Of a DNA stretch of 64,000 nucleotides, positions 2,789 to 64,000 are shown piece by piece (position 1 is the stretch's first letter; each line of letters opens with the position of its first letter). The notes under the pieces are model-generated. The model was not told where the DNA came from, did not search any database, and saw nothing but the letters and a program-made list of their open reading frames with translations. Position numbers and translations under genes: made by a program. Origin of the DNA: Cornus controversa (taxonomy: Eukaryota; Streptophyta; Magnoliopsida; Cornales; Cornaceae); assembly GCA_026545225.1 (NCBI GenBank), contig CM048848.1, positions 44,660,806 to 44,724,805 on the forward strand. The letters run 5' to 3'.

Positions 2789-2992
2789 TGTTAGAAATAA
2801 GAGAAAAATAGAGAAATATCTTTGAATTATATTAACGAATGGTATATGAAACAATATACAGTGAGAGCATATATATAGGAAAAGGAAAAGAGGTAGGTGA
2901 GTGGGGAGCAAGTTATCCTATACATGGTAAGTCTCCAATCATGGGAATCCTAATTTGATATGGATAAGGTAATATACTAATATATTTCAACA
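2789..2992 (-). repeat. 3' LTR of the - strand copia fossil
   Basis: The 204-bp block begins TGTTAGAA and ends TTTCAACA on the + strand, so either strand reads TGTT...AACA. On the - strand it follows the purine-rich tract GAGGAGGGG, as expected for a 3' LTR. A TATA-like CCTATATATATG lies on the - strand at 2869-2880. The second LTR is absent, so neither age nor a target-site duplication can be read. Confidence 0.7.
2869..2880 (-). promoter_or_regulatory. TATA-like element in the - strand copia LTR
   Basis: CCTATATATATG on the - strand lies inside the 204-bp LTR, about 115 bp from its start, where a copia U3 promoter is expected. It is a relic promoter. Confidence 0.4.
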
Positions 2993-5140
2993 CCCCTCCT
3001 CAAACTCAAGGTGGGTTATACAATGCCAGCTGGAGTTTAAAAATAAACTCTTGAAAATGCCCTGATGGACGAGATTTGGTGAGGATATCTGCTATCTAAT
3101 CACATGAAGTGACTGCTCGTAACTGCAAGATATTTTGAAGTAGACGATGATGAACAAAATGACAATCTATCTCAATGTGTTTGGTCTACTCATGAAACAC
3201 ATCATGTGTGCAATCTGAATATCACTTTTGTTATCATAATAGATGGGACTAGTAGTGGACGAAGAAACACCCATATCCTGAAGAATCCATCGTAACCATA
3301 AAAGCTCAGAAGTAGCATCGACAAGTGCTCTATACTCATCCTCAGTGCTAGATCGAGCAATAACAGACTATTTCTTACTACGCCAATAGATCAGTGAGCT
3401 ACCAAGAAAGAAACAATATCCTGTAGTGGAACGACAATCTGTTGGGTCGCCAGCCCAATCTACATTAGAATAAGCACGAAGTACCAGTGAAGACTGATGA
3501 GAGAAAAAGAGCACACGAAATAGAGTACCCTTGACATAACGGATAATAGAAAGAACATCATTAAAGTGAACTAATTTAGGCAAAGTCATGAACTGACTGA
3601 CGATATGAACAACATAAGAAATATCTGGACAAGTGATAGTAAGATATACTATACTATCAACCAACTGACGATACAAAATACCATCACAAAGAAGTTCATT
3701 ATCATATGAAGTAAGTCTCACGTTAGGCTCAAATGTAGTATCGGCAATCATGTTGTCGGTGATGCCAGCTTTAGAAAGAAGATCGGAACAATACTTTGCT
3801 TGAGTAAGGTAATAACCATCAGTAGCTCTAGAAATTTTCAGGCCAAGATCTTTCATTTCAAATTGATGATTGAGAAACTACTTAAGTTACTGAATACCCT
3901 AAGTATAATCTTCGGTGATGATCATATCATTAACATAAAGCAAGAGAAGAATAATACCATTTGCAGTACGCCAGATAAATAAAACTGAATTATATGTACT
4001 GGTAGAAAAACCAATGCGAGAAATATTAGAACTGAACTCGACAAACTAATCTTGAGGTGCCTGTTTAAGACCATATAAAGCACGCCTAAGTTTATAAACT
4101 TGATGAGGTGGATGATCAAAACTTGGAGGAGGCTTCAAATAAACTTTCTTGAGCAAATTATCATTGAAAAAATATTTTTGACATCCATCTGAAAAAGTTT
4201 CCAATGATGGGAAGTAGCCACAATAATAAGAGTACGAATAGAAGGAAGATGAGCAACATAAGCAAAAGTCTCCTCATAATCGATGCCATACACCTGTGTG
4301 AACCTCCTTGCCACAAGTCGGGCTTTATAGTGCTCAACAGATCCATCTGAATGAGTTTTGATTTTGTAGACCTATTTATATCCAATGGTAGACTTCTTTG
4401 GAAACAATTTAACTAGATCCCATATATGAGTCTGGGCAAGTGTATCTAACTCTTTTTTTATTGCTTGCTGCCATAAAGGGTTAGAGAAGGCCTCGCAAAA
4501 AGTGTGAGGTTCATGAAAGGTTGTAAGAGCATGATAACAATGATAGTGTTGAAGATGTGCAGGGAGGTTCTTACCCGAGTGGATCGATGATAATCCAAAA
4601 CAGTGGCAACATCAGGAGCTTCAGGCGGGACCGATGATTGGAACTCAACTACAGGAGGGTCAACCATATGTGATAAGCTAGAAGGGTCAACTGTATCTGA
4701 TGAGCTAGTAGAAGGAGAATCTAAAAAAAGATCTACAGATGTATCTAAAGGACGAATATGAAATTGGTGATCAGAAATACCAGTGAATTTGGATAAGTTA
4801 TGAAACATTTTATGTTCCCAAAAAATAACATGACGAGAGACTCTAAGGTGTCTCGTAACTGGATCATAACATCTATATCCCTTTTGTTCAAGTCCATACC
4901 CAAGAAAATAATAGAACTGAGCACGAGGTTGTAATTTTATTCGCTCATGAAGATGAAGAAGAACAAAATAAGCACACCCAAAAATTTTAAGATTATTATT
5001 GTCAGGAACCTGCCCATAAAGACGCTCAAATGGTATTTGATTTTGTAAAAGTGGTGTGGGTACACGATTCATGGTATAGACAACAGTGAGGAAACTTTAA
5101 CCCAAAAAGATGATGGCACAGAAAAATAAAATAAATTGAT

Positions 5141-5646
5141 AACAAAAGAGAAGGGCAAATAATGATTGGAATAGGGAAAATTACAAATACGTGGACTTTT
5201 GGAGTCAAATTTACAAGTGCATGAAGTCAAAGTCATGAAATTTTAAAAAAATGAATTGTCCTAAAATGGTGATGTAGATATGAAAAAATACTGTTTATTT
5301 TATTCAAGTACACAAACTACTCTTAATATTTTCACAACTAGTGATAAAAAAAAAGAGAAAAAACTAAATTTTGATCATTTGTTAACAAAGTAGTCTTCAC
5401 GAAAAGGGGTACCTTTATTCATAAAAGTGGTGCCAACGTGCAAAAATATAGTCATCCGATGATGATAATTTTATCATATTTTCAAATTGCATTACCTGTC
5501 ACTGAGCGATTATTAGTACATGAGTACTTTCATATACGCATAAGGTTGTTCCTTGATCTGATCCAATAACTCAACGAATATTCGATTTGATTACCTTATT
5601 GGTTAAAGATAGATTTAAAAAATAAAATAAAATAAAATAAATTAAC
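5141..5646 (+). repeat. Subunit A (type copy), 506 bp
   Basis: This is the first subunit of the HOR. Diagnostic features are the leader ATTGATAACAAAAGAGAAGG, an ACGTGGACTT variant of the first 30-bp module, AAATGGTGATGTAGATATG, and the central AACGTGCAAAAATATAG. It carries the GTACATGAGTACT dyad, but the second dyad has decayed. It directly follows the copia junction, so the array begins at a subunit start. Confidence 0.85.
5181..5240 (+). repeat. Internal 30-bp duplicated module within each subunit (example copy)
   Basis: TTACAAATACGTGGACTT starts at 5181 and TTACAAATGCATGAAGTC starts at 5211, exactly 30 bp apart. The same pair occurs in all six subunit types. It shows an older, shorter duplication inside the ancestral monomer, and it is near several inter-subunit crossovers. 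Confidence 0.75.
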
Positions 5647-6153
5647 ATCAAAAGAGAAGGAAAAAGAATTAATAGAATAGATAAACTTACAAATACATGC
5701 AGTTTTGGAGTCTAATTACAAAAGCATGAAGTTAAAGTCATGAAATTTGAAGGAATTGAATTGTCCTAAAATGCCTATGCGGATCTGGAAAAAAAATTGT
5801 TTATTTTATTCAAGTACCCAAACTACTGTTACCAGTGATAAAAAAGAAAATACTAAATTTTGATGACTAGTTAACAAATACTATTCACAAAAGGTAGTAC
5901 CTCTATTTACAAAAGTGGTGCCTGCGTACACAAAAATTGTCTGGAAAAATGTTGTCGTCCGATGATAACAAATTGATCAGATTCTCAAGTTCCATTTACT
6001 TGTCATTGAGAGATTACTAGTACATGAGTACTTTCATATACGCATAACCTTATTCCTTGATCTGATCCAATACCCTAACGGATATTCGATTTGATAACCT
6101 GATAAGCTAAGGACAGTTTTTTTAATAAAAAAAAAATTGTTAAATAAATTAAT
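5647..6153 (+). repeat. Subunit B (type copy), 507 bp
   Basis: Diagnostic features are the leader AACATCAAAAGAGAAGGAAA, ACATGCAGTTTTGGAGTCT, and GAAGGAATTGAATTGTCC. The leader carries a length polymorphism of about 10 bp (extra AAATAAATT-type sequence), which explains most HOR length differences between 2882 and 2894 bp. Confidence 0.85.
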
Positions 6154-6655
6154 ATCAAAAGAGAAAGGCAAATAATTATTAGAATATATAAAATTACAAA
6201 TACATGGACCTTTGGTGTCTAATTTACAAATGCATGAAGTCAAATTAACGGAATTTCAAAAAAATCAATTGTCCGATAATGTTGAATAGGATCTGAAATA
6301 ATACAGTCTATTGTATTCTAGTACACAAACTATTCATACTATTTTGACAACCTGTAACAAAAAATAAAAAAATTAAATTTTGAAATATTTTTCACCAAAA
6401 GTTGAACCCCTATCCACAAAAGTGGTCCATACTTTCACAAAACTGGAAATGAGAAATTTGAGTCATCTAATGATGATAATTTGATCATATTCTCAAATTA
6501 TATGTATTGGTCACTGAGAGATTACTACTACATGAGTACTTTCATATATGTTTAAAGTTATTAGTTTTTTCGTTGTAATAACCCAACGGATATCTGATTT
6601 GATAACCTGATCGACTAAGGAATGTTTTTTTTTAAATAAAATAAAATCAACTGAT
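6154..6655 (+). repeat. Subunit C (type copy), 502 bp
   Basis: Diagnostic features are GAGAAAGGCAAATAATTATT, ACATGGACCTTTGGTGTCT, GTTGAATAGGATCTGAAAT and GTGGTCCATACTTTCACAA. The CACGTG-like core seen in D is replaced here by CATACTTTCAC. Both dyads are present. Confidence 0.85.
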
Positions 6656-7161
6656 ATCAAAAGAGAAGGGCAAATAATGATTAGAGTACAAAAAATTACA
6701 AATACATGGACTTTTGGATTCTAATTTACAAACGCATGTAGTCAAATTAATGGAATTTCAAAAAAATCAATTGTCTGATAATGTTGATGTGGAGCTAAAA
6801 AAAAATAGGGTTTATTTAATTCTAGTGCACAAACTACTCATATTATTTTGACAACCTGTGATAAAAAATAAGAAAAACTAAATTTTGAAATATTTTTCCC
6901 AAAAGGTTATACCTCTATCCACAAAAGTGGTGCACACGTGCACAAAACTGGTAATGAAAAATTTGACTCATCTGACGATGATAATTTGATCAGATTCTAA
7001 AATTATATTTATTGGTCATTGAGAAATAACTACTACATGAGTACTTTCGTATATGTTTAATGTTGTTCTTTGTTTTGAACTAATAACTCAACGGATATTT
7101 GATTTGACAACCTGATCGACTAAAGATTGTTTTTTTAAAAAATGTAATAAAATAAATTGAT
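6656..7161 (+). repeat. Subunit D (type copy), 506 bp
   Basis: Diagnostic features are TTACAAACGCATGTAGTC, AAATAGGGTTTATTTAATTC and GTGGTGCACACGTGCACA, the last containing a CACGTG core. Two sequence types exist in the array: GATAATGTTGATGTGG in early units, and GATAATGTGGATGTGG from 15421 onward. Confidence 0.85.
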
Positions 7162-7489
7162 ATCAAAAGAGAAGGGCAAATAATGATTAGAATAAAAAAA
7201 ATTACAAATACATGGCCTTTTGGATTTTAATTTACAAATTCATGAAGTCAAATTAATGGAATTTCAAAAAAATCAATTGTCCGATAATGTTGATTTGGAT
7301 CTGAAAAAATACGGTTTATTTTATTTTAGTACACAAACTATTCGTATTATTTTGACAACCTGTGATAAAAAAATGAAGATAAAGAAACTAAATTTTGAAA
7401 TATTTTTCACAAAAATTGTACCTCCAACGGCAAAAGGGGTGCATACGTGCACAAAACAGGTAATGAAAAATTTGAGTCATCTGATAACG

Positions 7490-7515
7490 ATAATTTGATC
7501 AGATTCTCAAATTAT
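7490..7515. other. AT-rich dyad with 9-bp arms (example copy)
   Basis: ATAATTTGA (7490-7498) and TCAAATTAT (7507-7515) are perfect inverted arms around an 8-base spacer. The arrangement is kept in E and C, weaker in D, and decayed in A and B. It could extrude as a small hairpin. It lies about 25 bp upstream of the AGTACATGAGTACT dyad. Confidence 0.6.
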
Positions 7516-7540
7516 ATCTATTGGTCATTGAGAGATTAGT

Positions 7541-7554
7541 AGTACATGAGTACT
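7541..7554. other. Conserved dyad AGTACATGAGTACT (example copy)
   Basis: Five-base arms AGTAC and GTACT flank ATGA. The core TACATGAGTACTTT recurs in nearly every A-E subunit in all three domains and on both strands, while surrounding sequence varies. F always lacks it. This is a possible protein-binding or structural site; no function is shown. Confidence 0.6.
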
Positions 7555-7675
7555 TTTATATATGTTTAATGTTATTCTTTGTTTCGATCTAATAATCGAA
7601 CGAATATCTGATTTGATAACCTGCTCGACAATGAATTATTTTTTTTAAAAAAATAATAAAAGAAAATAAATTGAT

Positions 7676-8032
7676 ATAAGAAGAAACGAGCAAATAATGA
7701 TTAGAATAGGGAAAATTACAAAAACATGGACTTTTGTAGTTTAATTTACAAATGCATCAAGTCAAAGTCACGAAATTTCCAAAAAAAATGAATTGCTCGA
7801 AAATGCTGTTGTGGATATGAAAAATTAATGTTTATTTTATTCAAGTACGCAAAATACCATTACTATTTTGACAACCAGTGATAAAAAAAAAAATCAACTG
7901 AATTGTGATCACGAGTTTTCAAAATAGACTTGCCTACGTGCACAAAATTGGTGATGCAAAAATGGATATCCAGTTTGATAACCTGATCGGCTAAGGATAG
8001 TTTATCTAATAAGTAAAATAAAATAAATTGAT
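7676..8032 (+). repeat. Subunit F (type copy), shortened, 357 bp
   Basis: Diagnostic features are GAAGAAACGAGCAAATAATG, CAAAAACATGGACTTTTGTAG, GATCACGAGTTTTCAAAATAG and GCAAAAATGGATATCCAG. F lacks roughly 150 bp of the central block between the GTGCACAAAATTGG and GGATATCCAG segments, the part that holds both dyads in the other subunits. The deletion is shared by every F copy, so it predates HOR amplification. Confidence 0.85.
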
Positions 8033-10914
8033 AACAAAAGAGAAGGGCAAATAATGATTGGAATAGGGAAAATTACAAATACGTGGACTTTTGGAGTCAA
8101 ATTTACAAATGCATGAAGTCAAAGTCATGAAATTTTAAAAAAATGAATTGTCCTAAAATGGTGACGTAGATATGAAAAAATACTGTTTATTTTATTCAAG
8201 TACACAAACTACTCTTAATATTTTCACAACTAGTTATAAAAAAAAAAGAGAAAAAACTAAATTTTGATCATTTGTTAACAAAGTAGTCTTCACGAAAAGG
8301 GGTACCTTTATTCATAAAAGTGGTGCCAACGTGCAAAAATATAGTCATCCGATGATGATAATTTTATCATATTTTCAAATTGCATTACCTGTCACTGAGC
8401 GATTATTAGTACATGAGTACTTTCATATACGCATAAGGTTGTTCCTTGATCTGATCCAATAACTCAACGAATATTCGATTTGATTACCTTATTGGTTAAA
8501 GATAGATTTAAAAAATAAAATAAAATAACATCAAAAGAGAAGGAAAAAGAATTAATAGAATAGATAAACTTACAAATACATGCAGTTTTGGAGTCTAATT
8601 ACAAAAGCATGAAGTTAAAGTCATGAAATTTGAAGGAATTGAATTGTCCTAAAATGCCTATGCGGATCTGGAAAAAAAATTGTTTATTTTATTCAAGTAC
8701 CCAAACTACTGTTACCAGTGATAAAAAAGAAAATACTAAATTTTGATGACTAGTTAACAAATACTATTCACAAAAGGTAGTACCTCTATTTACAAAAGTG
8801 GTGCCTGCGTACACAAAAATTGTCTGGAAAAATGTTGTCGTCCGATGATAACAAATTGATCAGATTCTCAAGTTCCATTTACTTGTCATTGAGAGATTAC
8901 TAGTACATGAGTACTTTCATATACGCATAACCTTATTCCTTGATCTGATCCAATACCCTAACGGATATTCGATTTGATAACCTGATAAGCTAAGGACAGT
9001 TTTTTTAATAAAAAAAAAATTGTTAAATAAATTAATATCAAAAGAGAAAGGCAAATAATTATTAGAATATATAAAATTACAAATACATGGACCTTTGGTG
9101 TCTAATTTACAAATGCATGAAGTCAAATTAACGGAATTTCAAAAAAATCAATTGTCCGATAATGTTGAATAGGATCTGAAATAATACAGTCTATTGTATT
9201 CTAGTACACAAACTATTCATACTATTTTGACAACCTGTAACAAAAAATAAAAAAATTAAATTTTGAAATATTTTTCACCAAAAGTTGAACCCCTATCCAC
9301 AAAAGTGGTCCATACTTTCACAAAACTGGAAATGAGAAATTTGAGTCATCTAATGATGATAATTTGATCATATTCTCAAATTATATGTATTGGTCACTGA
9401 GAGATTACTACTACATGAGTACTTTCATATATGTTTAAAGTTATTAGTTTTTTCGTTGTAATAACCCAACGGATATCTGATTTGATAACCTGATCGACTA
9501 AGGAATGTTTTTTTTAAATAAAATAAAATCAACTGATATCAAAAGAGAAGGGCAAATAATGATTAGAGTACAAAAAATTACAAATACATGGACTTTTGGA
9601 TTCTAATTTACAAACGCATGTAGTCAAATTAATGGAATTTCAAAAAAATCAATTGTCTGATAATGTTGATGTGGAGCTAAAAAAAAATAGGGTTTATTTA
9701 ATTCTAGTGCACAAACTACTCATATTATTTTGACAACCTGTGATAAAAAATAAGAAAAACTAAATTTTGAAATATTTTTCCCAAAAGGTTATACCTCTAT
9801 CCACAAAAGTGGTGCACACGTGCACAAAACTGGTAATGAAAAATTTGACTCATCTGACGATGATAATTTGATCAGATTCTAAAATTATATTTATTGGTCA
9901 TTGAGAAATAACTACTACATGAGTACTTTCGTATATGTTTAATGTTGTTCTTTGTTTTGAACTAATAACTCAACGGATATTTGATTTGACAACCTGATCG
10001 ACTAAAGATTGTTTTTTTAAAAAATGTAATAAAATAAATTGATATCAAAAGAGAAGGGCAAATAATGATTAGAATAAAAAAAATTACAAATACATGGCCT
10101 TTTGGATTTTAATTTACAAATTCATGAAGTCAAATTAATGGAATTTCAAAAAAATCAATTGTCCGATAATGTTGATTTGGATCTGAAAAAATACGGTTTA
10201 TTTTATTTTAGTACACAAACTATTCGTATTATTTTGACAACCTGTGATAAAAAAATGAAGATAAAGAAACTAAATTTTGAAATATTTTTCACAAAAATTG
10301 TACCTCCAACGGCAAAAGGGGTGCATACGTGCACAAAACAGGTAATGAAAAATTTGAGTCATCTGATAACGATAATTTGATCAGATTCTCAAATTATATC
10401 TATTGGTCATTGAGAGATTAGTAGTACATGAGTACTTTTATATATGTTTAATGTTATTCTTTGTTTCGATCTAATAATCGAACGAATATCTGATTTGATA
10501 ACCTGCTCGACAATGAATTATTTTTTTTAAAAAAATAATAAAAGAAAATAAATTGATATAAGAAGAAACGAGCAAATAATGATTAGAATAGGGAAAATTA
10601 CAAAAACATGGACTTTTGTAGTTTAATTTACAAATGCATCAAGTCAAAGTCACGAAATTTCCAAAAAAAATGAATTGCTCGAAAATGCTGTTGTGGATAT
10701 GAAAAATTAATGTTTATTTTATTCAAGTACGCAAAATACCATTACTATTTTGACAACCAGTGATAAAAAAAAAAATCAACTGAATTGTGATCACGAGTTT
10801 TCAAAATAGACTTGCCTACGTGCACAAAATTGGTGATGCAAAAATGGATATCCAGTTTGATAACCTGATCGGCTAAGGATAGTTTATCTAATAAGTAAAA
10901 TAAAATAAATTGAT
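8033..10914 (+). repeat. HOR unit 2, 2882 bp
   Basis: Complete A-F unit with the short B leader. D and E are the early (type I) versions. Almost identical to unit 3 by eye. Confidence 0.9.
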
Positions 10915-13796
10915 AACAAAAGAGAAGGGCAAATAATGATTGGAATAGGGAAAATTACAAATACGTGGACTTTTGGAGTCAAATTTACAAATGCATGAAG
11001 TCAAAGTCATGAAATTTTAAAAAAATGAATTGTCCTAAAATGGTGACGTAGATATGAAAAAATACTGTTTATTTTATTCAAGTACACAAACTACTCTTAA
11101 TATTTTCACAACTAGTTATAAAAAAAAAAGAGAAAAAACTAAATTTTGATCATTTGTTAACAAAGTAGTCTTCACGAAAAGGGGTACCTTTATTCATAAA
11201 AGTGGTGCCAACGTGCAAAAATATAGTCATCCGATGATGATAATTTTATCATATTTTCAAATTGCATTACCTGTCACTGAGCGATTATTAGTACATGAGT
11301 ACTTTCATATACGCATAAGGTTGTTCCTTGATCTGATCCAATAACTCAACGAATATTCGATTTGATTACCTTATTGGTTAAAGATAGATTTAAAAAATAA
11401 AATAAAATAACATCAAAAGAGAAGGAAAAAGAATTAATAGAATAGATAAACTTACAAATACATGCAGTTTTGGAGTCTAATTACAAAAGCATGAAGTTAA
11501 AGTCATGAAATTTGAAGGAATTGAATTGTCCTAAAATGCCTATGCGGATCTGGAAAAAAAATTGTTTATTTTATTCAAGTACCCAAACTACTGTTACCAG
11601 TGATAAAAAGAAAATACTAAATTTTGATGACTAGTTAACAAATACTATTCACAAAAGGTAGTACCTCTATTTACAAAAGTGGTGCCTGCGTACACAAAAA
11701 TTGTCTGGAAAAATGTTGTCGTCCGATGATAACAAATTGATCAGATTCTCAAGTTCCATTTACTTGTCATTGAGAGATTACTAGTACATGAGTACTTTCA
11801 TATACGCATAACCTTATTCCTTGATCTGATCCAATACCCTAACGGATATTCGATTTGATAACCTGATAAGCTAAGGACAGTTTTTTTAATAAAAAAAAAA
11901 TTGTTAAATAAATTAATATCAAAAGAGAAAGGCAAATAATTATTAGAATATATAAAATTACAAATACATGGACCTTTGGTGTCTAATTTACAAATGCATG
12001 AAGTCAAATTAACGGAATTTCAAAAAAATCAATTGTCCGATAATGTTGAATAGGATCTGAAATAATACAGTCTATTGTATTCTAGTACACAAACTATTCA
12101 TACTATTTTGACAACCTGTAACAAAAAATAAAAAAATTAAATTTTGAAATATTTTTCACCAAAAGTTGAACCCCTATCCACAAAAGTGGTCCATACTTTC
12201 ACAAAACTGGTAATGAGAAATTTGAGTCATCTAATGATGATAATTTGATCATATTCTCAAATTATATGTATTGGTCACTGAGAGATTACTACTACATGAG
12301 TACTTTCATATATGTTTAAAGTTATTAGTTTTTTCGTTGTAATAACCCAACGGATATCTGATTTGATAACCTGATCGACTAAGGAATGTTTTTTTTTAAA
12401 TAAAATAAAATCAACTGATATCAAAAGAGAAGGGCAAATAATGATTAGAGTACAAAAAATTACAAATACATGGACTTTTGGATTCTAATTTACAAACGCA
12501 TGTAGTCAAATTAATGGAATTTCAAAAAAATCAATTGTCTGATAATGTTGATGTGGAGCTAAAAAAAAATAGGGTTTATTTAATTCTAGTGCACAAACTA
12601 CTCATATTATTTTGACAACCTGTGATAAAAAATAAAAAAAACTAAATTTTGAAATATTTTTCCCAAAAGGTTATACCTCTATCCACAAAAGTGGTGCACA
12701 CGTGCACAAAACTGGTAATGAAAAATTTGACTCATCTGACGATGATAATTTGATCAGATTCTAAAATTATATTTATTGGTCATTGAGAAATAACTACTAC
12801 ATGAGTACTTTCGTATATGTTTAATGTTGTTCTTTGTTTTGAACTAATAACTCAACGGATATTTGATTTGACAACCTGATCGACTAAAGATTGTTTTTTT
12901 AAAAAATGTAATAAAATAAATTGATATCAAAAGAGAAGGGCAAATAATGATTAGAATAAAAAAAATTACAAATACATGGCCTTTTGGATTTTAATTTACA
13001 AATTCATGAAGTCAAATTAATGGAATTTCAAAAAAATCAATTGTCCGATAATGTTGATTTGGATCTGAAAAAATACGGTTTATTTTATTTTAGTACACAA
13101 ACTATTCGTATTATTTTGACAACCTGTGATAAAAAAATGAAGATAAAGAAACTAAATTTTGAAATATTTTTCACAAAAATTGTACCTCCAACGGCAAAAG
13201 GGGTGCATACGTGCACAAAACAGGTAATGAAAAATTTGAGTCATCTGATAACGATAATTTGATCAGATTCTCAAATTATATCTATTGGTCATTGAGAGAT
13301 TAGTAGTACATGAGTACTTTTATATATGTTTAATGTTATTCTTTGTTTCGATCTAATAATCGAACGAATATCTGATTTGATAACCTGCTCGACAATGAAT
13401 TATTTTTTTTAAAAAAATAATAAAAGAAAATAAATTGATATAAGAAGAAACGAGCAAATAATGATTAGAATAGGGAAAATTACAAAAACATGGACTTTTG
13501 TAGTTTAATTTACAAATGCATCAAGTCAAAGTCACGAAATTTCCAAAAAAAATGAATTGCTCGAAAATGCTGTTGTGGATATGAAAAATTAATGTTTATT
13601 TTATTCAAGTACGCAAAATACCATTACTATTTTGACAACCAGTGATAAAAAAAAAAATCAACTGAATTGTGATCACGAGTTTTCAAAATAGACTTGCCTA
13701 CGTGCACAAAATTGGTGATGCAAAAATGGATATCCAGTTTGATAACCTGATCGGCTAAGGATAGTTTATCTAATAAGTAAAATAAAATAAATTGAT
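10915..13796 (+). repeat. HOR unit 3, 2882 bp
   Basis: Complete A-F unit with the short B leader and type I D and E. The C subunit now reads ACTGGTAATGAG where units 1-2 have ACTGGAAATGAG, a change carried by the rest of domain 1. Confidence 0.9.
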
Positions 13797-16677
13797 AACA
13801 AAAGAGAAGGGCAAATAATGATTGGAATAGGGAAAATTACAAATACGTGGACTTTTGGAGTCAAATTTACAAATGCATGAAGTCAAAGTCATGAAATTTT
13901 AAAAAAATGAATTGTCCTAAAATGGTGACGTAGATATGAAAAAATACTGTTTATTTTATTCAAGTACACAAACTACTCTTAATATTTTCACAACTAGTTA
14001 TAAAAAAAAAAGAGAAAAAACTAAATTTTGATCATTTGTTAACAAAGTAGTCTTCACGAAAAGGGGTACCTTTATTCATAAAAGTGGTGCCAACGTGCAA
14101 AAATATAGTCATCCGATGATGATAATTTTATCATATTTTCAAATTGCATTACCTGTCACTGAGCGATTATTAGTACATGAGTACTTTCATATACGCATAA
14201 GGTTGTTCCTTGATCTGATCCAATAACTCAACGAATATTCGATTTGATTACCTTATTGGTTAAAGATAGATTTAAAAAATAAAATAAAATAACATCAAAA
14301 GAGAAGGAAAAAGAATTAATAGAATAGATAAACTTACAAATACATGCAGTTTTGGAGTCTAATTACAAAAGCATGAAGTTAAAGTCATGAAATTTGAAGG
14401 AATTGAATTGTCCTAAAATGCCTATGCGGATCTGGAAAAAAAATTGTTTATTTTATTCAAGTACCCAAACTACTGTTACCAGTGATAAAAAAGAAAATAC
14501 TAAATTTTGATGACTAGTTAACAAATACTATTCACAAAAGGTAGTACCTCTATTTACAAAAGTGGTGCCTGCGTACACAAAAATTGTCTGGAAAAATGTT
14601 GTCGTCCGATGATAACAAATTGATCAGATTCTCAAGTTCCATTTACTTGTCATTGAGAGATTACTAGTACATGAGTACTTTCATATACGCATAACCTTAT
14701 TCCTTGATCTGATCCAATACCCTAACGGATATTCGATTTGATAACCTGATAAGCTAAGGACAGTTTTTTTAATAAAAAAAAAATTGTTAAATAAATTAAT
14801 ATCAAAAGAGAAAGGCAAATAATTATTAGAATATATAAAATTACAAATACATGGACCTTTGGTGTCTAATTTACAAATGCATGAAGTCAAATTAACGGAA
14901 TTTCAAAAAAATCAATTGTCCGATAATGTTGAATAGGATCTGAAATAATACAGTCTATTGTATTCTAGTACACAAACTATTCATACTATTTTGACAACCT
15001 GTAACAAAAAATAAAAAAATTAAATTTTGAAATATTTTTCACCAAAAGTTGAACCCCTATCCACAAAAGTGGTCCATACTTTCACAAAACTGGTAATGAG
15101 AAATTTGAGTCATCTAATGATGATAATTTGATCATATTCTCAAATTATATGTATTGGTCACTGAGAGATTACTACTACATGAGTACTTTCATATATGTTT
15201 AAAGTTATTAGTTTTTTCGTTGTAATAACCCAACGGATATCTGATTTGATAACCTGATCGACTAAGGAATGTTTTTTTTTAAATAAAATAAAATCAACTG
15301 ATATCAAAAGAGAAGGGCAAATAATGATTAGAGTACAAAAAATTACAAATACATGGACTTTTGGATTCTAATTTACAAACGCATGTAGTCAAATTAATGG
15401 AATTTCAAAAAAATCAATTGTCCGATAATGTGGATGTGGATAAAAAAAAATAGGGTTTATTTAATTCTAGTGCACAAACTACTCACATTATTTTGACAAC
15501 CTGTGATAAAAAATAAAAAAAACTAAATTTTGAAAATATTTTTCCCAAAAAGTTATACCTCTATCCACAAAAGTGGTGCACACGTGCACAAAACTGGTAA
15601 TGAAAAATTTGACTCATCTGATGATGATAATTTGATCAGATTCTAAAATTATATTTATGGGTGATTGAGAAATAACTACTACATGAGTACTTTCGTATAT
15701 GTTTAATGTTGTTCTTTGTTTTGAACTAATAACTCAACGGATATTTGATTTGACAACCTGATCGACTAAAGATTGTTTTTTTAAAAATGTAATAAAATAA
15801 ATTGATATCAAAAGAGAAGGGCAAATAATGATTAGAATAAAAAAAATTACAAATACATGGCCTTTTGGATTTTAATTTACAAATTCATGAAGTCAAATTA
15901 ATGGAATTTCAAAAAAATCAATTGTCCGATAATGTTGATTTGGATCTGAAAAAATACGGTTTATTTTATTTTAGTACACAAACTATTCGTATTATTTTGA
16001 CAACCTGTGATAAAAAAATGAAGATAAAGAAACTAAATTTTGAAATATTTTTCACAAAAATTGTACCTCCAACGGCAAAAGGGGTGCATACGTGCACAAA
16101 ACAGGTAATGAAAAATTTGAGTCATCTGATAACGATAATTTGATCAGATTCTCAAATTATATCTATTGGTCATTGAGAGATTAGTAGTACATGAGTACTT
16201 TTATATATGTTTAATGTTATTCTTTGTTTCGATCTAATAATCGAACGAATATCTGATTTGATAACCTGCTCGACAATGAATTATTTTTTTTAAAAAAATA
16301 ATAAAAGAAAATAAATTGATATAAGAAGAAACGAGCAAATAATGATTAGAATAGGGAAAATTACAAAAACATGGACTTTTGTAGTTTAATTTACAAATGC
16401 ATCAAGTCAAAGTCACGAAATTTCCAAAAAAAATGAATTGCTCGAAAATGCTGTTGTGGATATGAAAAATTAATGTTTATTTTATTCAAGTACGCAAAAT
16501 ACCATTACTATTTTGACAACCAGTGATAATAAAAAAAATCAACTGAATTGTGATCACGAGTTTTCAAAATAGACTTGCGTACGTGCACAAAATTGGTGAT
16601 GCAAAAATGGATATCCAGTTTGATAACCTGATCGGCTAAGGATAGTTTATCTAATAAGTAAAATAAAATAAATTGAT
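13797..16677 (+). repeat. HOR unit 4, 2881 bp, mosaic
   Basis: Complete A-F unit. Its D switches to the type II sequence (GATAATGTGGATGTGG from 15421) while its E is still type I. Its F carries private variants (GATAATAAAAAAAATC, CTTGCGTACGTG) that recur in the F of unit 5. Confidence 0.88.
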
Positions 16678-51557: not shown

Positions 51558-54428
51558 ATCAATTTATTTTATTTTACTTATTAAATAAACTATCCATAGC
51601 CGATCAGGTTACCAAACTGGATATCCATTTTTGAATCACCAATTTTGTGCACGTAGGCAAGTCTATTTTGAAAACTCGTGATCGCAATTTAGTTGATTTT
51701 TTTTTTATCACTGGTTGTCAAAATAGTAATGGTATTTTGCATACTTGAGTAAAATAAATGTTAATTTTTCATATCCACATCAGCATTTTCGTGCAATTTA
51801 GTTTTTTGGAAATTTCATGACATTGACTTCATGCATTTGTAAATTAAACTACAAAAGTCCATGTTTTTGTAATTTTCCCTAATCTAATCATTATTTGCTC
51901 TTTTTTTCTGATATCAATTTATTTTATTTTATTATTATTTTTTTAAAAATAATTCATTGTGGAGCATGTTATCAAATCAGATATCCGTTAGATTATTAGA
52001 TCGAAACAAAGAATAACATTAAACATATATAAAAGTACTAATGTACTACTAATCTCTCAATGACCACTAAATATAATTTGAGAATCTGATCAAATTATCA
52101 TTATCAGATGACTCAAATTTTTCATTACCTCTTTTGTGCACGTATGCACCCCTTTTGAGGATGGAGGTACAACTTTTTGTAAAAATATTTGAAAATTTAG
52201 TTTTTTTATTTTTTATCACAGGTGTTCAAAATAATATGAGTAGTTTGTGTACTAGAATAAAATAAACCGTATTTTTTTAGATCCACATCAACATTATCGG
52301 ACAATTGATTTTTTTGAAATTCCATTAATTTGACTACATGCATTTGTAAATTAGAATCCGAAAGTCCATGTATTTGTAATTTTTTGTATTCTAATCATTA
52401 TTTGCCCTTCTCTTTTGATATCAATTTATTTTATTACATTTTTTTAAAAAAACAATCCTTAGTCGATCAGGTTATCAAATCAAATATCCGTTGAGCTATT
52501 AGATCAAAAAAAGGAACAACATTAAACATATATGAAAGTACTCATGTAGTAGTTATTTCTCAATGACCAATAAATATAATTTTAGAAGCTGATCAAATTA
52601 TTATCATCAGATGAGTCAAATTTTTCATTACCAGTTTTGTGCACGTGTGCACCACTTTTGTGGATAGAGGTATAACCTTTTGGGAAAAATATTTCAAAAT
52701 TTAGTTTCTTTTTATTTTTTATCACAGGTTGTCAAAATAATATGAGTAGTCTGTGCACTAGAATAAAATAAACCCTATTTTTTTAGATCCACATCAACAT
52801 TATCGGACAATTGATTTTTTTGAAATTCCATTAATTTGACTACATGCGTTTGTAATTTAGAATCCAAAAGTCCATGTATTTGTAATTTTTTGTGCTCTAA
52901 TCATTATTTGCCCTTCTCTTTTGATATCAATTGATTTTATTTTATTTAGAAAAAAAAACATTCCTTAGTCGATCAGGTTATCAAATCAGATAGCCATTGG
53001 GTTATTAGAACGAAAAAACTAATAACTTTAAACATATTTGAAAGTACTCATGTACTAGTAATCTCTCAATGACCAATACATATAATTTGAGAATATGATC
53101 AAATTATCATCATTAGATGACTCAAATTTCTCATTACCAGTTTTGTGAAAGTGTGGACCACTTTTGTGGATAGAGGTTTAACTTTTTGTGAAAAATATTT
53201 CAAAATTTAGTTTTTTTATTTTTTATTACAGGTTGTCAAAGTAGTATGAATAGTTTGTGTACTAGAATACAATAAACTGTATTATTTCAGATCCACTTCA
53301 ACATTATCGGACAATTGATTTTTTTGAAATTCCGTTAATTTGACTTCATGCATTTGTAAATTAGACACCAAAGGTCCATGTATTTGTAATTTTATATATT
53401 CTAAAAATTATTTGCCTTTTTCTTTTGATATTAATTTATTTAACAATTTTTTTTAAAAAAAAAACTATCCTTAGCTTATCAGGTTATCAAATCGAATATC
53501 CGTTAGGGAATTGGATCAGATCAAGGAATAAGGTTACGCGTATATGAAAGTACTCATGTACTAGTAATCTCTCAATGACAAGTAAATGGAACTTGAGAAT
53601 CTGATCAATTTGTTATCGTCGGACGACTACATTTTTTCAGACAATTTTTGTGTACGCAGGCACCACTTTTGTAATAGAGGTACTATCTTTTGTGAATAGT
53701 ATTTATTAACTAGTCATTAAAATTTAGTATTTTGTTTTTTATCACTGGTTTGGGTACTTGAATAAAATAAACAATTTTTTTTTCAAATCCACATAGGCAT
53801 TTTAGGACAATTCAATTCCTTCAAATTTCATGACTTTAACTTCATGCATTTGTAAATTAGACTCCAAAACTGCATGTATTTGTAATTTTATCTATTCTAT
53901 TAATTATTTTTCCTTCTCTTTTGATGTTAATTTATTTTATTTTATTTTTTTTTAAATCTATCTTTAACCAATAAGGTAATCAAATGGAATATTCGTTGAG
54001 TTATTGGATCAGATCAAGGAACAACCTTATGCGTATATGAAAGTACTCATGTACTAATAATCTCTCAGTGACAGGTAATGCAATTTGAAAATATGATAAA
54101 ATTATCATCATCAGATGACTATATTTTTGCACGTCGGCACTACTTTTATGAATAAAGGTACCCCTTTTCGTGAAGACTACTTTGTTAACAAATGATCAAA
54201 ATTTAGTTTTTTCCCTTTTTTTTATCACTAGTTGTGAAAATATTAAGAGTAGTTTGTGTACTTGAATAAAATAAACAGTATTTCTTCATATCTACATCAC
54301 CATTTTAGGACAATTCATTTTTTTAAAATTTCATGACTTTGACTTCATGCATTTGAAAATTTGACTCCAAAAGTCCACGTATTTGTAATTTTCCCTATTC
54401 CAATCATTATTTGCCCTTCTCTTTTCTT
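51558..54428 (-). repeat. Inverted unit i-2: complete six-subunit HOR, 2871 bp
   Basis: Subunits on the - strand: A 53926-54428, B 53430-53925, C 52926-53429, D 52420-52925, D/E1 hybrid 51913-52419, F 51558-51912. It proves that the same A-F order exists in the inverted arm. Confidence 0.88.
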
Positions 54429-57105
54429 ATCAATTTATTTTATTTTACTTAATAAATAAACTATCCTTAGCCGATCAGGTTACCAAACTGGATATCCATT
54501 TTTGCATCACCAATTTTGTGCACGTAGGCAAGTCTATTTTGAAAACTCGTGATCGCAATTTAGTTGATTTTTTTTTATCACTGGTTGTCAAAATAGTAAT
54601 GGTATTTTGCGTACTTGAATAAATTAAACGTTAATTTTTCATATCCACATCAGCATTTTCGTGCAATTTATTTTTTTGGAAATTTCATGACTTTGACTTC
54701 ATGCATTTGTAAATTAAACTACAAAACTCCATGTTTTTGTAATTTTCCCTAATCTAATCATTATTTGCTCTTTTCTTCTGATATCAATTTATTTTATTTT
54801 ATTATTTTTAAAAAAAAAATAATTCATTGTCGAGCAGGTTATCAAATCAGATATCCGTTCGATTATTAGATCGAAACAAAGAATAACATTAATCATATAT
54901 AAAAGTACTCGTGTACTACTAATCTCTCAATGACCAATAAATATAATTTGAGAATCTGATCAAAATATCGTTATCAGATGACTCAAATTTTTCATTACCT
55001 GTTTTGTGCACGTATGCACCCCTTTTGAGGATGGAGGTACAACTTTTTCTGAAAAATATTTCAAAATTTAGTTTTTTTATTTTTTATCACAGGTTGTCAA
55101 AATAATATGAGTAGTTTGTGTACTAGAATAAAATAAACTGTATTTTTTTAGATCCACATCAACATTATCGGACAATTGATTTTTTTGAAATTCCATCAAT
55201 TTGACTACATGCGTTTGTAAATTAGAATCCAAAAGTCCATGTATTTGCAATTTTTTGTATTCTAATCATTATTTGCCCTTCTCTTTTGATATCAATTTAT
55301 TTTATTACATTTTTTTAAAAAAACAATCCTTAGTCGATCAGGTTATCAAATCAAATTTCCGTTGAGTTATTAGATCAAAAAAAGGAACAACATTAAACAT
55401 ATATGAAAGTGCTCATGTAGTAGTTATTTCTCAATGACCAATAAATATAATTTTAGAATCTGATCAAATTATCATCATCAGATGAGTCAAATTTTTCATT
55501 ACCAGTTTTGTGCACGTGTGCACCACTTTTGTGGATAGAGGTATAACTTTTTGGGAAAAATATTTCAAAATTTAGTTTTTTTTTTATTTTTTATCACAGG
55601 TTGTCAAAATAATATGAGTAGTTTGTGCACTAGAATAAAATAAACCCTATTTTTTTAGATCCACATCAACATTATCGGACAATTGATTTTTTTGAAATTC
55701 CAATAATTTGACTACATGCGTTTGTAAATTAGAATCCAAAAGTCCATGTATTTGTAATTTTTTGTACTCGAATCATTATTTGCCCTTCTCTTTCGATATC
55801 AGTTGATTTTATTTTATTTAAAAAAAAAAACATTCCTTAGTCGATCAGGTTATCAAATCAGATATCCGTTGGGTTATTAGAACGAAAAAACTAATAACTT
55901 TAAACATATATGAAAGTACTCATGTAGTAGTAATCTCTCAATGACCAATACATATAATTTGAGAATATGATCAAATTATCATAATTAGATGACTCAAATT
56001 TCTCATTACCAGTTTTGTGAAAGTATGGACCACTTTTGTGGATAGAGGTTCAACTTTTTGTGAAAAATATTTCAAATTTTAGTTTGTTTATTTTTTGTTA
56101 CAGGTTGTCAAAATAGTATGAATTGTTTGTGTACTAGAATACAATAAACTGTATTATTTCAGATCTACTTCAACATTATTGGACAATTGATTTTTTTGAA
56201 ATTCCGTTAATTTGACTTCATGCATTTGTAAATTAGACACCAAAGGTCCATGTATTTGTAATTTTATATATTCTAAAAATTATTTGCCTTTTTCTTTTGA
56301 TATTAATTTATTTAACAATTTTTTTTTAAAAAAAAACTATCCTTAGCTTATCAGGTTATCAAATCGAATATCCGTTAGGGTATTGGATCAGATCAAGGAA
56401 TAAAGTTATGCGTATATGAAAGTATTCATGTACTAGTAATCTCTCAATGACAAGTAAATGGAACTTCAGAATTTGATCAATTTGTTATCATCGGACGACT
56501 TCATTTTTCCAGACAATTTTTGTGTACACAGGCACCACTTTTGTAAATACAGGTACTACCTTTTGTGAATAGTATTTGTTAACTAGTCATCAAAATTTAG
56601 TATTTTGTTTTTTATAACTGGTTGTCAAAATTGTAACAGTAGTTTGGGTAGTTAAATCAAATAAACAATTTTTTTTTCAAATCCGCATAGGCATTTTAGG
56701 ACAATTCAATTCCTTCAAATTTCATGACTTTAACTTCATGCATTTGTAAATTAGACTCCAAAACTGCATGTATTTGTAATTTTATCTATTCTACTAATTA
56801 TTTTTCCTTCTCTTTTGATGTTAATTTATTTTATTATTATTTTTTTTAAATCTATCTTTAACCAATAAGGTAATCAAATCGAATATTCGTTGAGTTATTG
56901 GATCAGATCAAGGAACAACCTTATGCGTCATCAGATGACTATATTTTTGCACGTCGGCACCACTTTTATGAATAAAGGTACCCCTTTTCGTGAAGACTAC
57001 TTTGTTAACAAATGATCAAAATTTAGTTTTTTCTTTTTTTTTTATCACTAGTTGTGAAAATATTAAGAGTAGTTTGTGTACTTGAATAAAATAAACAGTA
57101 TTTTA
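54429..57105 (-). repeat. Inverted unit i-3: six subunits with A internally deleted
   Basis: F 54429-54782, D/E1 54783-55290, D 55291-55797, C 55798-56301, B 56302-56819, then a shortened A to about 57105. A has lost part of its central block at about 56,929 (TTATGCGT runs straight into CATCAGATG, removing the dyad block), and its first part near 57,105 (CAGTATTTT runs into ATTAAATAAAC). Confidence 0.82.
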
Positions 57106-57956
57106 TTAAATAAACTATCCTTAGCCGATCAGGTTATCAAACTGGATATCCATTTTTGCATCACCAATTTTGTGCACGTAGACAAGTCTATTTTGAAAAC
57201 TCGTGATCACAATTTAGTTAATTTTTTTTTTTTTTTATCACTGGTTGTCAAAATAGTAATGGTATTTTGCGTACTTGAATAAAATAAACGTTAATTTTTC
57301 ATATCCACATCAGCATTTTCGTGCAATTCATTTTTTTGGAAATTTCATGACTTTGACTTCATGCATTTGTAAATTAAACTACAAAAGTCCATGTTTTTGT
57401 AATTTTCCCTAATCTAACCATTATTTGCTCTTTTCTTCTGATATCAATTTATTTTATTTTATTATTTTTTTTAAAAAAATAATTCATTGTTGAGCAGGTT
57501 ATCAAATCAGATATCCGTTCGATTATTAGATCGAAACAGAGAATAACATTAAACATATATAAAAGTACTCATGTACTACTAATCTCTCAATGACCAATAA
57601 ATATAATTTGAGAATCTGATCAAATTATCGTTATCAGATGACTCAAATTTTTCATTACCTGTTTTGTGCACGTATGCACCGCTTTTGCCTTTGGAGGTAC
57701 AATTTTTGTGAAAAATATTTCAAAATTTAGTTTTTTTATCTTCATTTTTTATCACAGGTTGTCAAAATAATACGAATAGTTTGTGTACTAGAATAAAATA
57801 AACCCTATTTTTTTAGATCCACATCAACATTATCGGACAATTGATTTTTTTTGAAATTCCATTAATTTGACTACATGCGTTTGTAAATTAGAATCCAAAA
57901 GTCCATGTCTTTGTAATTTTCCCTATTCCAATCATTATTTGCCCTTCTCTTTTGTT
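57106..57956 (-). repeat. Inverted dimeric unit: A/D/E2 hybrid + F, about 851 bp
   Basis: F about 57106-57442, then a 514-bp hybrid (57443-57956). On the - strand the hybrid starts with the A leader, passes through a D-type second module (ACGCATGTAGTC) and continues as E2 (CAAAGGC in place of CAACGGC). It parallels the dimers of domain 2. Confidence 0.82.
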
Positions 57957-60900
57957 ATCAATTTATTTTATTTTACTTATTAAATAAACTATCCTTAGCC
58001 GATCAGGTTATCAAACTGGATATCCATTTTTGCATCACCAATTTTGTGCATGTACGCAAGTCTATTTTGAAAACTCGTCATCACAATTTAGTTGATTTTT
58101 TTTTTATCACTGGTTGTCAAAATAGTAATGGTATTTTGCGTACTTGAAGAAAATAAACGTTAATTTTTCATATCCACATCAGCATTTTCGTGCAATTCAT
58201 TTTTTTGGAAATTTCATGACTTTGACTTCATGCATTTGTAAATTAAACTACAAAAGTCCATGTGTTTGTAATTTTCCCTAATCTAATCATTATTTGATCT
58301 TTCCTTCTGATATCAATTTATTTTATTTTATTATTTTTTTAAAAAAATAATTCATTGTCGAACAGGTTATCAAATCAGATATTCGTTCAATTTTTAGATC
58401 GAAACAAAGAATAACATTAAACATATATAGAAGTACTCATGTACTACTAATCTCTCAATGACCAATAGATATAATTTGAGAATCTGATCAAATTATCGTT
58501 ATCAGATGACTCAAATTTTTAATTACCTATTTTGTGCACGTATGCACCCCTTTTGCCGTTGGAGGTATAATTTTTGTGAAAAATATTTCAAAATTTAGTT
58601 TTTTTATCTTCATTTTTTTATCACAGGTTGTCAAAATAATACGAATAGTTTGTTTACTAGAATAAAATAAACCGTATTTTTTTAGATCCACATCAACATT
58701 ATTGGACAATTGATTTTTTTGAAATTCCATTAATTTGACTTCATGAATTTGTAAATTTGAATCCAAAAGTCCATGTATTTGTAATTTTTTGTATTCTAAT
58801 CATTATTTGCCCTTCTCTTTTGATATCAATTTATTTAATTACATTTTTAAAAAAAACAATCCTTAGTCGACCAGGTTATCAAATCAAATATCCGTTGAGT
58901 TATTAGATCAAAAAAAGGAACAACATTAAACATATATGAAAGTACTCTTGTAGTAGTTATTTCTCAATGACCAATAAATATAATTTTACAATCTGATCAA
59001 ATTATCATCATCAGATGAGTCAGATTTTTCATTACCAGATTTGTGCACGGGTGCACCACTTTTGTGGATAGAAGTATAACTTTTTGGGAAAAATATTTCA
59101 AAATTTAGTTTTTTTTATTTTTTATAACAGGTTGTCAAAATAATATGAGTAGTTTGTGCACTAGAATAAAATAAACCCTATTTTTTTAGATCCACATCAA
59201 CATTATCGGACAATTGATTTTTTTGAAATTCCATTAATTTGACTACATGCGTTTGTAAATTAGAATCCAAAAGTCCATGTATTTGTATTTTTTTATATTC
59301 TAATCATTATTTGCCCTTCTCTTTTGATATCAGTTTATTTTATTACATTTTTTAAAAAAAACAATCCTTAGTCGAACAGGTTATCAAATCAAATATGCGT
59401 TGAGTTATTAGATCAAAAAAAGGAACAACGTTAAACATATATGAAAGTACTCATGTACTACTTATTTCTCAATGACCAATAAATATAATTTTAGAATCTG
59501 ATCAAATTATCATGATCAGATGAGTCAAAATTTTCATTACCAATTTTGTGCACGTGTGCACCACTTTTGTGGATAGAGGTATAACTTTTTGGGAAAAATA
59601 TTTCAAAATTTAGTTTTTTTTATTTTTTATCACAGGTTGTCAAAATAATATGAGTATTTTGTGCACTAGAATAACATAAACCCTATTTTTTTAGATCCAC
59701 ATCAACATTATCGGACAATTGATTTTTTTGAAATTCCATTAATTTGACTACATGCGTTTGTAAATTAGAATCCAAAAGTCCATGTATTTGTAATTTTTTG
59801 TACTCTAATCATTATTTGCCATTCTCTTTTGATATCTGTTGATTTTATTTTATTTAAAAAAAAAACATTCCTTAGTCGATCAGGTTATCAAATCAGATAT
59901 CCATTGGGTTATTAGAACGAAAAAACTAATAACTTTAAACATATATGAAAGTACTCATGTAGTAGTAATCTCTCAATGACCAATACATATAATTTGAGAA
60001 TGTGATCAAATTATCATCATTAGATGACTCAAATTTCTCATTACCAGTTTTGTGAAAGTATGGACCACTTTTGTGGATAGAGGTTCAATTTTTTGTGAAA
60101 AATATTTCAAATTTTAGTTTTTTTTATTTTATATTACAGGTTGTCAAAATAGTATGAATAGTTTGTGTACTAGTATACAATAAACTGTATTATTTCAGAT
60201 CCACTTCAACATTATCGGACAATTGATTTTTTTGAAATTTCGTTAATTTGACTTCATGCATTTGTAAATTAGACACCAAAGGTCCATGTATTTGTAATTT
60301 TATATATTCTAAAAATTATTTGCCTTTCTCTTTTGATATTAATTTATTTAACAATTTTTTTCTTTTTAAAAAAACTGTCCTTAGCTTATCAGGTTATCAA
60401 ATCGAATATCCGTTAGGGTATTGGATCAGATCAAGGAATATGGTTATGCGTATATGAAAGCACTCATGTACTAGTAATCTCTCAATGACAAGTAAATGGA
60501 ACTTGAGAATCTGATCAATTTGTTATCATCGGACGACTACATTTTTTTAGACAATTTTTGTGTACGCAAGCACCACTTTTGTAAATAGAGGTACTACCTT
60601 TTGTGAATAGTATTTGTTAACTAGTTATCAAAATTTAGTATTTTGTTTTTTATCACTGGTTGTCAAAATAGTAACAGTAGTTTGGGTACTTGAATAAAAT
60701 AAACAATTTTTTTTTCAAATCCGAATAGGCATTTTAGGACAATTCAATTCCTTCAAATTTCATGACTTTAACTTCATGCATTTGTAAATTAGACTCCAAA
60801 ACTGCATGTATTTGTAATTTTATCTATTCTATAAATTATTTTTCCTTCTCTTTTGATGTTAATTTATTTATTTTTACTTTTTTTTTAAATCTATCTTTAA

Positions 60901-61362
60901 CCAATAAGGTAATCAAATCGAATATTCGTTGAGTTATTGGATCAGATCAAGGAACAACCTTATGCGTATATGAAAGTACTCATGTACTAATAATCTCTCA
61001 GTGACAAGTAATGCAATTTGAAAATATGATAAAATTATCATCATTAGATGACTATATTTTTGCACGTCGGCACCACTTTTATGAATAAAGGTACCCCTTT
61101 TCGTGAAGACTACTTTGTTAACAAATGATCAAAATTTAGTTTTTTCTCTTTTTTTTTTATCACTAGTTGTGAAAATATTAAGAGTAGTTTGTGTACTTGA
61201 ATAAAATAAACAGTATTTTTTCATATCTACATCACCATTTTAGGACAATTCATTTTTTTAAAATTTCATGACTTTGACTTCATGCATTTGTAAATTTGAC
61301 TCCAAAAGTCCATGTATTTGTAATTTTCCCTATTCCAATCATTATTTGCCCTTCCCTTTTTT
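57957..61362 (-). repeat. Inverted unit i-5: seven-subunit HOR with doubled D, 3406 bp
   Basis: F 57957-58311, E2 58312-58824, D 58825-59328, a second D 59329-59833, C 59834-60337, B 60338-60857, A 60858-61362. Both D copies carry ACTACATGCGTTTG and the AACCCTATTTTTTTAG block. The unit is longer than the standard by one subunit. Confidence 0.85.
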
Positions 61363-63739
61363 ATCAATTTATTTTATTTTACTTATTAAATAAACTATCC
61401 CTAGCAGATCAGGTTATAAAATTGGATATCCATTTTCGCGTCACCAATTTTGTGCACGTAGGCAAGACTATTTTGAAAACTCAAGATCACAATTTAGTTG
61501 ATTTTTATTTTTATCACTGGTTGTCAAAATAGTAATGGTATTTTGTGTACTTGAATAAAATAAACGTTAATTTTTCATATACACATCAGCATTTTCGTAC
61601 AATTCATATTTTTTTTTTAAATTTGATGAGTTTGACTTCATGCATTTGTAAATTAAACTCCAAAAGTCCATGTTTTTGTAATTTTCCCTATTCTAATCAT
61701 TATTTGTTCTTTTCTTTTGATATCAATTTATTTTATTTTATTATATTTTAAAAAGAAAAAATCCATTGCCGATCAAGTTATCAAATCAGATATCCGTTCG
61801 ATTATTAGATCGAAAAAAGAATAACATTAAACATATATGAAAGTACTCAATGACCAATAAATATAATTTTAGAATCTGATCAAATTATCATCATCAGATC
61901 ACTCAAATTTTTCATTACCAGTTTTGTGCACGAATGAACCACTTTTGTGGATAGAGGTATAACTTTTTCGGAAAAATATATCAAAATTTAGTTTTTTTTA
62001 ATTTTTTATCACTGGTTGTAAAAATAGTATGAGTAGTTTTTGTACTAGAATAAAATAAACTGTATTTTTTTAGCTCCACATCAACATTATCGGACAATTG
62101 ATTTTTTTGAAACTCCATTAATTTCACTTCATGCATTTGTAAATTAGACTCCAAAAGTCCATGTATTTGTAATTTTTTGGATTCTAATCATTGTTCGCCC
62201 TTCTCTTTTGATATCAATTTATTTTATTACATTTTTTTAAAAAAACAATCCTTAGTCGATCAGGTTATCAAATCCGATATCCGTTGGGTTATTAGAACGA
62301 AAAAACTAATATCTTTAAACATATATGAAAGTACTCATGTAGTAGTAATCTCTCAATGACCAATAAATATAATTTGAGAATATGATCAAATTATCATCAT
62401 TAGATGACTCAAATTTCTCATTACCTGTTTTGTGAAAGTATGGACCACTTTTGTGGATAGAGGTTCAACTTTTTGTGAAAAATATTTCAAAATTTAGTTT
62501 TTTTATTTTTTATTACGGGTGGTCAAAATAGTATGAATAGTTTGCGTACTAGAATAAAATAAACTCTATTTTTTCAGATCCACATCAACATTATCGGACA
62601 ATTGATTTTTTTGAAATTCCATTAATTTGACTTCATGCATTTGTAAATTAGAATCCAAAAGTCTATGTATTTGTAATTTTATATATTCTAATAATTATTT
62701 GCCTTTCTCTTTTGATATTAATTTATTTAACAAATTTTTTTAAAAAAAAAACTATCCTTAGCTTATCAGGTTATCAAATCGAATATCCGTCAGGTTTTGG
62801 ATCAGACAAGGAATAACGTTATGCGTATATGAATATACTCATGTACTAGTAATCTCTCAATGACAAGTAAATGGAACTTGAGAATCTGATCAATTTTTAT
62901 CATTGGACGACTACATTTTTTCAGACAATTTTTGTGTACGTAGGCCCCACTTTTGTAAATAGAGGTACTACCTTCTGTGAATAGTATTTGTTAACTAGTC
63001 ATCAAAATTTAGTATTTTGTTTTTTATCACTGGTTGTCAAAATAGTAACAGTAGTTTGGGTACTTGAATAAAATAAACAACTTTTTTTCAAATCCACATA
63101 GGCATTTTAGGACAATTCAATTCCTTGAAATTTCATGACTGTAACTTCATGCATTTGTAAATTAGACTCCAAAACTCCATGTATTTGTAATTTTATCTAT
63201 TCTATTAATTATTTTTCCTTCTCTTTTGATGTTAATTTATTTTATTTTATTTATTTTTTAAATCTATCTTTAACCAATAAGGTAATCAAATCGAATATTC
63301 GTTGAGTTATTGGATCAGATCAAGGAACAACCTTATGCGTATATGAAAGTACTCATGTACTAATAGTCTCTCAGTGACAGGTAATGCAATTTGAAAATAT
63401 GATCAAGTATCATCATCAGATGACTATATTTTTGCACGTTGCCACCACTTTTATGAATAGAGGTACCCCTTTTTGTGAAGACTATTTTGTTAACAAATGA
63501 TCAAAATTTTATTTTTTCTCTTTTTTTTTTTTTTATCACTAGTTGAGAAAATATTAAGAGTAGTTTGTGTACTCGAATAAAATAAACAGTATTTTTTCAT
63601 ATCTACATCATCATTTTAGGACAATTCATTTTTTTAAAATTTCATGACTTTGACTTCATGCATTTGTAAATTTGACTCCAAAAGTCCACGTATTTGTAAT
63701 TTTCCCTATTCCAATCATTATTTGCCCTTCTCTTTTGTT
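61363..63739 (-). repeat. Inverted unit i-6: five-subunit HOR, 2377 bp
   Basis: F 61363-61731, a D-like subunit 61732-62212 (481 bp), C-like 62213-62715, B 62716-63230, A 63231-63739. The D-like subunit has lost part of the conserved dyad block (GAAAGTACTCAATGACC at about 61,840). The most diverged unit in the window by eye. Confidence 0.8.
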
Positions 63740-64000
63740 ATCAATTTATTTTATTTTACTTATTAAATAAACTATCCTTAGCCGACCAGGTTATCAAATT
63801 GGATATCCATTTTTGTATCTCCAATTTTGTGCACGTAGGCAAGACTATTTTGAAAACTCGTGATCACAATTTAGTTGATTTTATTTTTTTATCACTGGTT
63901 GTCAAAATACTAATGGTATTTTGCGTACTTGAATATAATAAACGTTATTTTTCATATCCACATCAGCATTTTCGTACAATTCATTTTTTTTGAAATTTCA
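63740..64000 (-). repeat. Partial subunit F at the right window edge
   Basis: Reads as inverted F (GGATATCCATTTTTG, CTCGTGATCACAATTTAG, CATCAGCATTTTCG) and is cut by the window end. The array continues to the right. Confidence 0.85.

Follow-up and report, generated by a model that had tools for sequence, protein, structure and literature searches.

A six-monomer higher-order satellite array with derived and inverted segments in Cornus controversa

The window, i.e. the whole analysed stretch of 64,000 nucleotides of Cornus controversa DNA, comprises remains of Ty1/Copia elements followed by an AT-rich satellite that entirely fills 5123-64000, a length of 58.9 kb. GC content is 0.26-0.28 in satellite windows versus 0.34-0.37 in 1-4000. 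A search profile derived from monomers A-F of the first unit detects 138 pieces over this stretch, and cutting at monomer starts yields 125 monomers in all, of types A to F:

1-5122, both strands: decayed Ty1/Copia pieces, one on the plus strand (RT 232-683) and one on the minus strand (SH3-like and RT between 5096 and 4138)
5123-5137, plus strand: F monomer tail at the array edge, 15 bp, its 15 bases matching by eye the end of the F monomer that precedes the following A
5138-8029, plus strand: type unit of the higher-order repeat (HOR), with A 5138-5643, B 5644-6150, C 6151-6652, D 6653-7158, E 7159-7672 and F 7673-8029
8030-16674, plus strand: three full hexamers starting at 8030, 10912 and 13794, 99.5-99.9% identical to unit 1, gaps not counted
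16675-18549, plus strand: four-monomer unit A-B-(C/E chimera)-F, 1875 bp, switching from C to E within monomer 17679-18192
18550-38764, plus strand: seven full hexamers starting at 18550, 21444, 24338, 27222, 30115, 32999 and 35883
38765-40519, plus strand: two E-F dimers whose E starts like A (A/E chimera), with an A-to-E switch in 38765 and 39627
40520-45156, plus strand: two ABCEF pentamers of 2318 and 2319 bp, 98.9% alike, F being only 286 bp in each
45157-48063, plus strand: one full hexamer, 2907 bp, 96% identical to units 1 and 12
48064-49576, plus strand: E-F dimer, E and a 139-bp F start; the E at 48930 is an A/E chimera, the E at 48064 a weaker case
49430-49710: inversion junction with head-to-head F starts, arms 49430-49565 and 49575-49710 of 136 bp each, 9 bases apart
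49577-64000, minus strand: inverted, more diverged array of 31 monomers

Four of the eight stop-to-stop pieces in the flank match Pfam families (RVT_2 three times, SH3_retrovirus once) and the other four have no match. The minus-strand Copia piece is cut at the satellite edge; within it lie two imperfect 27-bp tandem copies (4653-4706). Single stretches near 1538-1970 and 2787-2990, noted by eye in this flank, are presumably LTR-like.

The subunit lengths originally predicted for the type unit (506, 507, 502, 506, 514 and 357 bp) are exact, and the array start at 5123 was placed correctly, as the F tail precedes monomer A. In a multiple alignment of the first unit the six monomer types are 70-88% alike. 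The AT-rich monomer of about 505 bp falls into two groups, one with A, B and F and the other with C, D and E. Type F is the shortened form: relative to A it lacks one stretch of about 34 bp and another of about 112 bp. The predicted higher-order satellite with one shortened member is upheld.

The regular block (5138-38764, plus strand, 33.6 kb) contains 70 monomers in 11 full ABCDEF units, each 2881-2894 bp long, and one four-monomer unit. Identity among these 12 units is 98.7-100%, gaps not counted, and the units are far more alike than the monomer types. The cyclic order A-B-C-D-E-F is kept by 68 of the 69 neighbour pairs (maximum of 2000 shuffles: 24). Monomer A possesses lengths of 497 and 506-507 bp in this block, a difference that by eye is located in its A/T-rich tail. 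A single unbroken 2.88-kb repeat up to 64000, as had been proposed, is not present: the same unit is not repeated through 5123-64000, and the regular hexamer stops at 38764. The proposed spacing of 2881-2894 bp holds for the 11 full units and not, as stated, farther on.

The middle zone (38765-49576, plus strand) comprises 24 monomers, arranged as two EF dimers, two ABCEF pentamers, one hexamer, a further EF dimer, an E and an F start. Shared 21-mers recur here most often at a distance of 2318-2320 bp, and 18 of the 23 neighbour pairs follow the cyclic order (maximum of 2000 shuffles: 11). In the calculation of unit identities the fifth EF pair was taken in the wrong phase, as F followed by E, and its values near 83% are left aside.

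At the inversion junction 128 of the 136 bases match between the arms (94% alike), and the E monomers flanking it are 93.7% alike. The arms thus differ at 8 of 136 bases, which argues against a simple fold-back of a read. Read on the minus strand from 64000, the inverted zone consists of F, ABCDF, ABCDDEF, an E with an F/A fusion (56823-57445), BCDEF after EF, ABCDEF, ABC(cut, 50210-50535)E and a cut F, corresponding to the typing string FABCDFABCDDEFEFBCDEFABCDEFABCEF, in which the F/A fusion is counted as F. A D monomer is duplicated side by side at 58828-59836. The two inverted units tested are 95.6-95.9% identical to units 1 and 12 and 96.3% to each other. The cyclic order is followed by 25 of 30 neighbour pairs (maximum of 2000 shuffles: 15); the fixed order claimed for the six subunits is thus partly retained in this zone. 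The best ungapped lag is 504. Spacings of 2870-2874 bp are commonest, with 2213, 4038 and 2660 bp also frequent; the anticipated 2.88-kb dot-plot diagonal, present in 5138-38764, is therefore reduced in the inverted zone, not lost. The original prediction does not speak of the C/E chimera, the rearrangements in the middle zone or the change of strand at about 49570.

A monomer tree was computed from 122 of the 125 monomers, leaving out the F/A fusion and, at the inversion, both short pieces of F. The monomers cluster by their position in the unit: A, B, C, E and F each form a single clade and D requires two changes, because of the monomer at 61725, a possible D/E mosaic. The tree likewise unites A, B and F on the one hand and C, D and E on the other. 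Copies from the regular block cluster inside each type, with starred support for B, C, D, E and F and 91/74 for A; in the middle zone, B, C and most E copies have clades of their own. Divergence from the type unit is 2-9% for monomers of the middle zone and of the inverted zone.

Chimeras were called against type consensuses built without ten suspect monomers, and the gains stand without a shuffled null. With two parents instead of one, 114 of 125 monomers gain at most 2 bases and 11 gain at least 5. The C/E chimera (17679-18192) switches from C to E at base 138-148, and the monomers at 38765, 39627 and 48930 from A to E at base 82-94. A weaker A-to-E switch is located at base 67-69 of the monomer at 48064. 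The four A/E chimeras share one tree clade (97/99), so one exchange with subsequent copying may be enough for all of them. The monomer at 62216 may switch from C to D (gain 9), the E monomers of the pentamers carry a weak D-to-E signal, and gains are weak (5 or 6 bases) at 61725, 48064, 57446, 44367 and 42048.

Coding content is low, with only six open reading frames of at least 90 amino acids in 5138-64000, the longest of 92, and Rfam yields no match at gathering thresholds. Neither full nor core matches to the 17-bp CENP-B box occur on either strand of the window. TTTAGGG is found once and CCCTAAA never in the window, which lacks a telomere-repeat array. A 10-bp periodicity of A/T dinucleotides is not clear in the one unit analysed, the score of the best of nine periods (10.1) being attained by 9 of 200 shuffles. 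A nucleosome-like period of 168 bp was rejected, as AT-density autocorrelation in one unit is 0.06-0.10 at lags 170-180 versus 0.53 at 504. Internal direct repeats of the monomers were also rejected: in five of six types the best self-match does not exceed the highest of 10 shuffles, and in E (32 versus 29) the matched stretch is simple A-rich sequence. Inverted self-matches, compared with three shuffled scores that form no proper null, are above them in B, E and F, equal in A and C and below in D. For E the inverted self-match scores 41 versus 24-28 at about 476-499, in A/T-rich sequence; because the control compares two different shuffles with each other, no conclusion is drawn from these scores. 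The anchor sequence of the repeat has no exact match in viral_contigs or genome_contigs, neither of which is a collection meant for plants, which gives this negative little weight.

Extracts of published descriptions allow a comparison by architecture. Rye pSc250 has 571-bp monomers and multimers up to hexamers of about 3.5 kb, cited there from earlier work (PMC4857426); it resembles the present array in its long monomer, its hexamer multimers and the enrichment of solo LTRs beside its arrays. The likeness is one of architecture, not of sequence, and the word "truncated" is absent from the pSc250 text. Centromere HORs of switchgrass, 792 and 1131 bp long, consist of full monomers with a truncated one at the end (PMC4053949); compared by architecture only, they share the one truncated member and differ in their monomer of about 175 bp. 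The subtelomeric khipu of Phaseolus has a monomer of similar length, 528 bp, a likeness not drawn from sequence, and the text describing it does not use the term "higher-order" (PMC3797529). A pericentric repeat of 500 bp is described from Arabidopsis (PMC8122249). The extracts on Vaccinium HOR satellites (monomers of 36-240 bp) and Vicia faba satellites (687-2033 bp) do not describe a six-part arrangement like this one. Human alpha-satellite HORs also combine divergent monomers, fixed order and near-identical units, but possess a CENP-B box in part of their units (PMC8122249), which is not found here, and a 171-bp monomer (PMC4053949). According to the same extract, HORs occur in 76 of 171 plant and animal species with Sanger data (PMC4053949). 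The suggestion that such HORs are less often reported in plants loses weight in view of rye pSc250 (PMC4857426) and of the truncated-monomer HORs of switchgrass (PMC4053949). As far as these excerpts go, pSc250, switchgrass and khipu make the kind already known, and judged by architectural precedent the present HOR is ordinary in kind.

The same order of the six types is seen on both strands, chimeric monomers are present in the derivative arrangements, and one hexamer version occupies 33.6 kb at 98.7-100% identity. Very probably, this satellite array was shaped by concerted evolution, with inversion, unequal recombination and a recent amplification of one hexamer. Such an explanation draws on the HOR decomposition and monomer order, on the higher identity between units than between types (70-88%), on the monomer tree, in which all types but D are single clades, on chimeras with located switch points and on two inverted units of the same order with 95.6-95.9% identity to units 1 and 12. 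The missing Rfam matches, the few short open reading frames and the Copia remains at the edge agree with it. Counted against it are the lack of a CENP-B box, of telomere motifs other than the single TTTAGGG and of a clear 10-bp periodicity, and also the position of the uniform block at the array edge by Copia, whereas the multimers of rye pSc250 are reported, in the extract used, from array centres (PMC4857426).

The ABCDEF order would have arisen first, and part of the array would then have been inverted and have diverged. Dimers and pentamers may subsequently have been produced by unequal recombination between monomers in register, and the uniform block would stem from a single hexamer amplified recently. 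The order appears older than the recent local amplification, because it is seen in the diverged inverted zone and because copies of the regular block group within the types. The chimeric monomers point to unequal exchange between aligned, different monomers, of which they are the expected marks; gene conversion or rolling-circle reinsertion could each leave similar patterns.

Arrays of this kind are hard to assemble, and the irregular part and the inversion might be assembly errors in a repeat. This is very improbable, given that middle and inverted monomers depart by 2-9% from the type unit, that B, C and most E of the middle zone have their own clades and that the junction arms are non-identical at 94%; copy numbers in the uniform block could nevertheless be wrong in the assembly. 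Derivation of the monomer from a transposable element, e.g. a retrotransposon part turned tandem, is a route reported in plants (by title, PMC7004042), and Copia pieces do adjoin the array. It is unlikely here: when both strands of the 5.1-kb Copia flank were compared with monomers A-F, none of the 12 scores (25-31) rose above the highest of 20 shuffles (27-36), two being equal to it.

More evenly placed are two readings of the array's location and role. It may possibly be a functional centromere satellite loaded with CENH3, being AT-rich, long, HOR-organised and locally uniform, and in many species tandem repeats that are abundant and form HORs have been proposed to be centromeric (PMC4053949). 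The nearest architectural match, rye pSc250, is however described as subtelomeric (PMC4857426). Moreover, five of the six types fall outside the one- and two-nucleosome length classes of 135-195 and 315-375 bp given in a further extract, only F (357 bp) lying inside (PMC5895790), and an internal repeat in the monomers is not convincing. Conceivable to a similar degree is a satellite of subtelomeric or interstitial heterochromatin, comparable to pSc250 of rye or khipu of bean. In the excerpts, monomer length is comparable to both (PMC4857426, PMC3797529), and pSc250 combines multimers up to hexamers of about 3.5 kb with LTR sequence beside its arrays (PMC4857426); yet a telomere-repeat array is absent from the window, and the likeness to pSc250 and khipu is by description, not by sequence. 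The concertedly evolving array probably lies in heterochromatin, at or near the centromere or near a chromosome end, and its function, if any, is probably exerted via chromatin, without a product.

It is tentatively proposed that the array represents an undescribed satellite family whose order predates the inversion and was kept on both sides of it, whose dimers and pentamers split off at exchange points, and whose successive HOR stages the window would display. The window contains a uniform block of young hexamers, derived dimers and pentamers whose exchange points can be traced, and an older inverted block with the same order. Though of a kind already known, it offers a compact worked example for how plant higher-order repeats arise.
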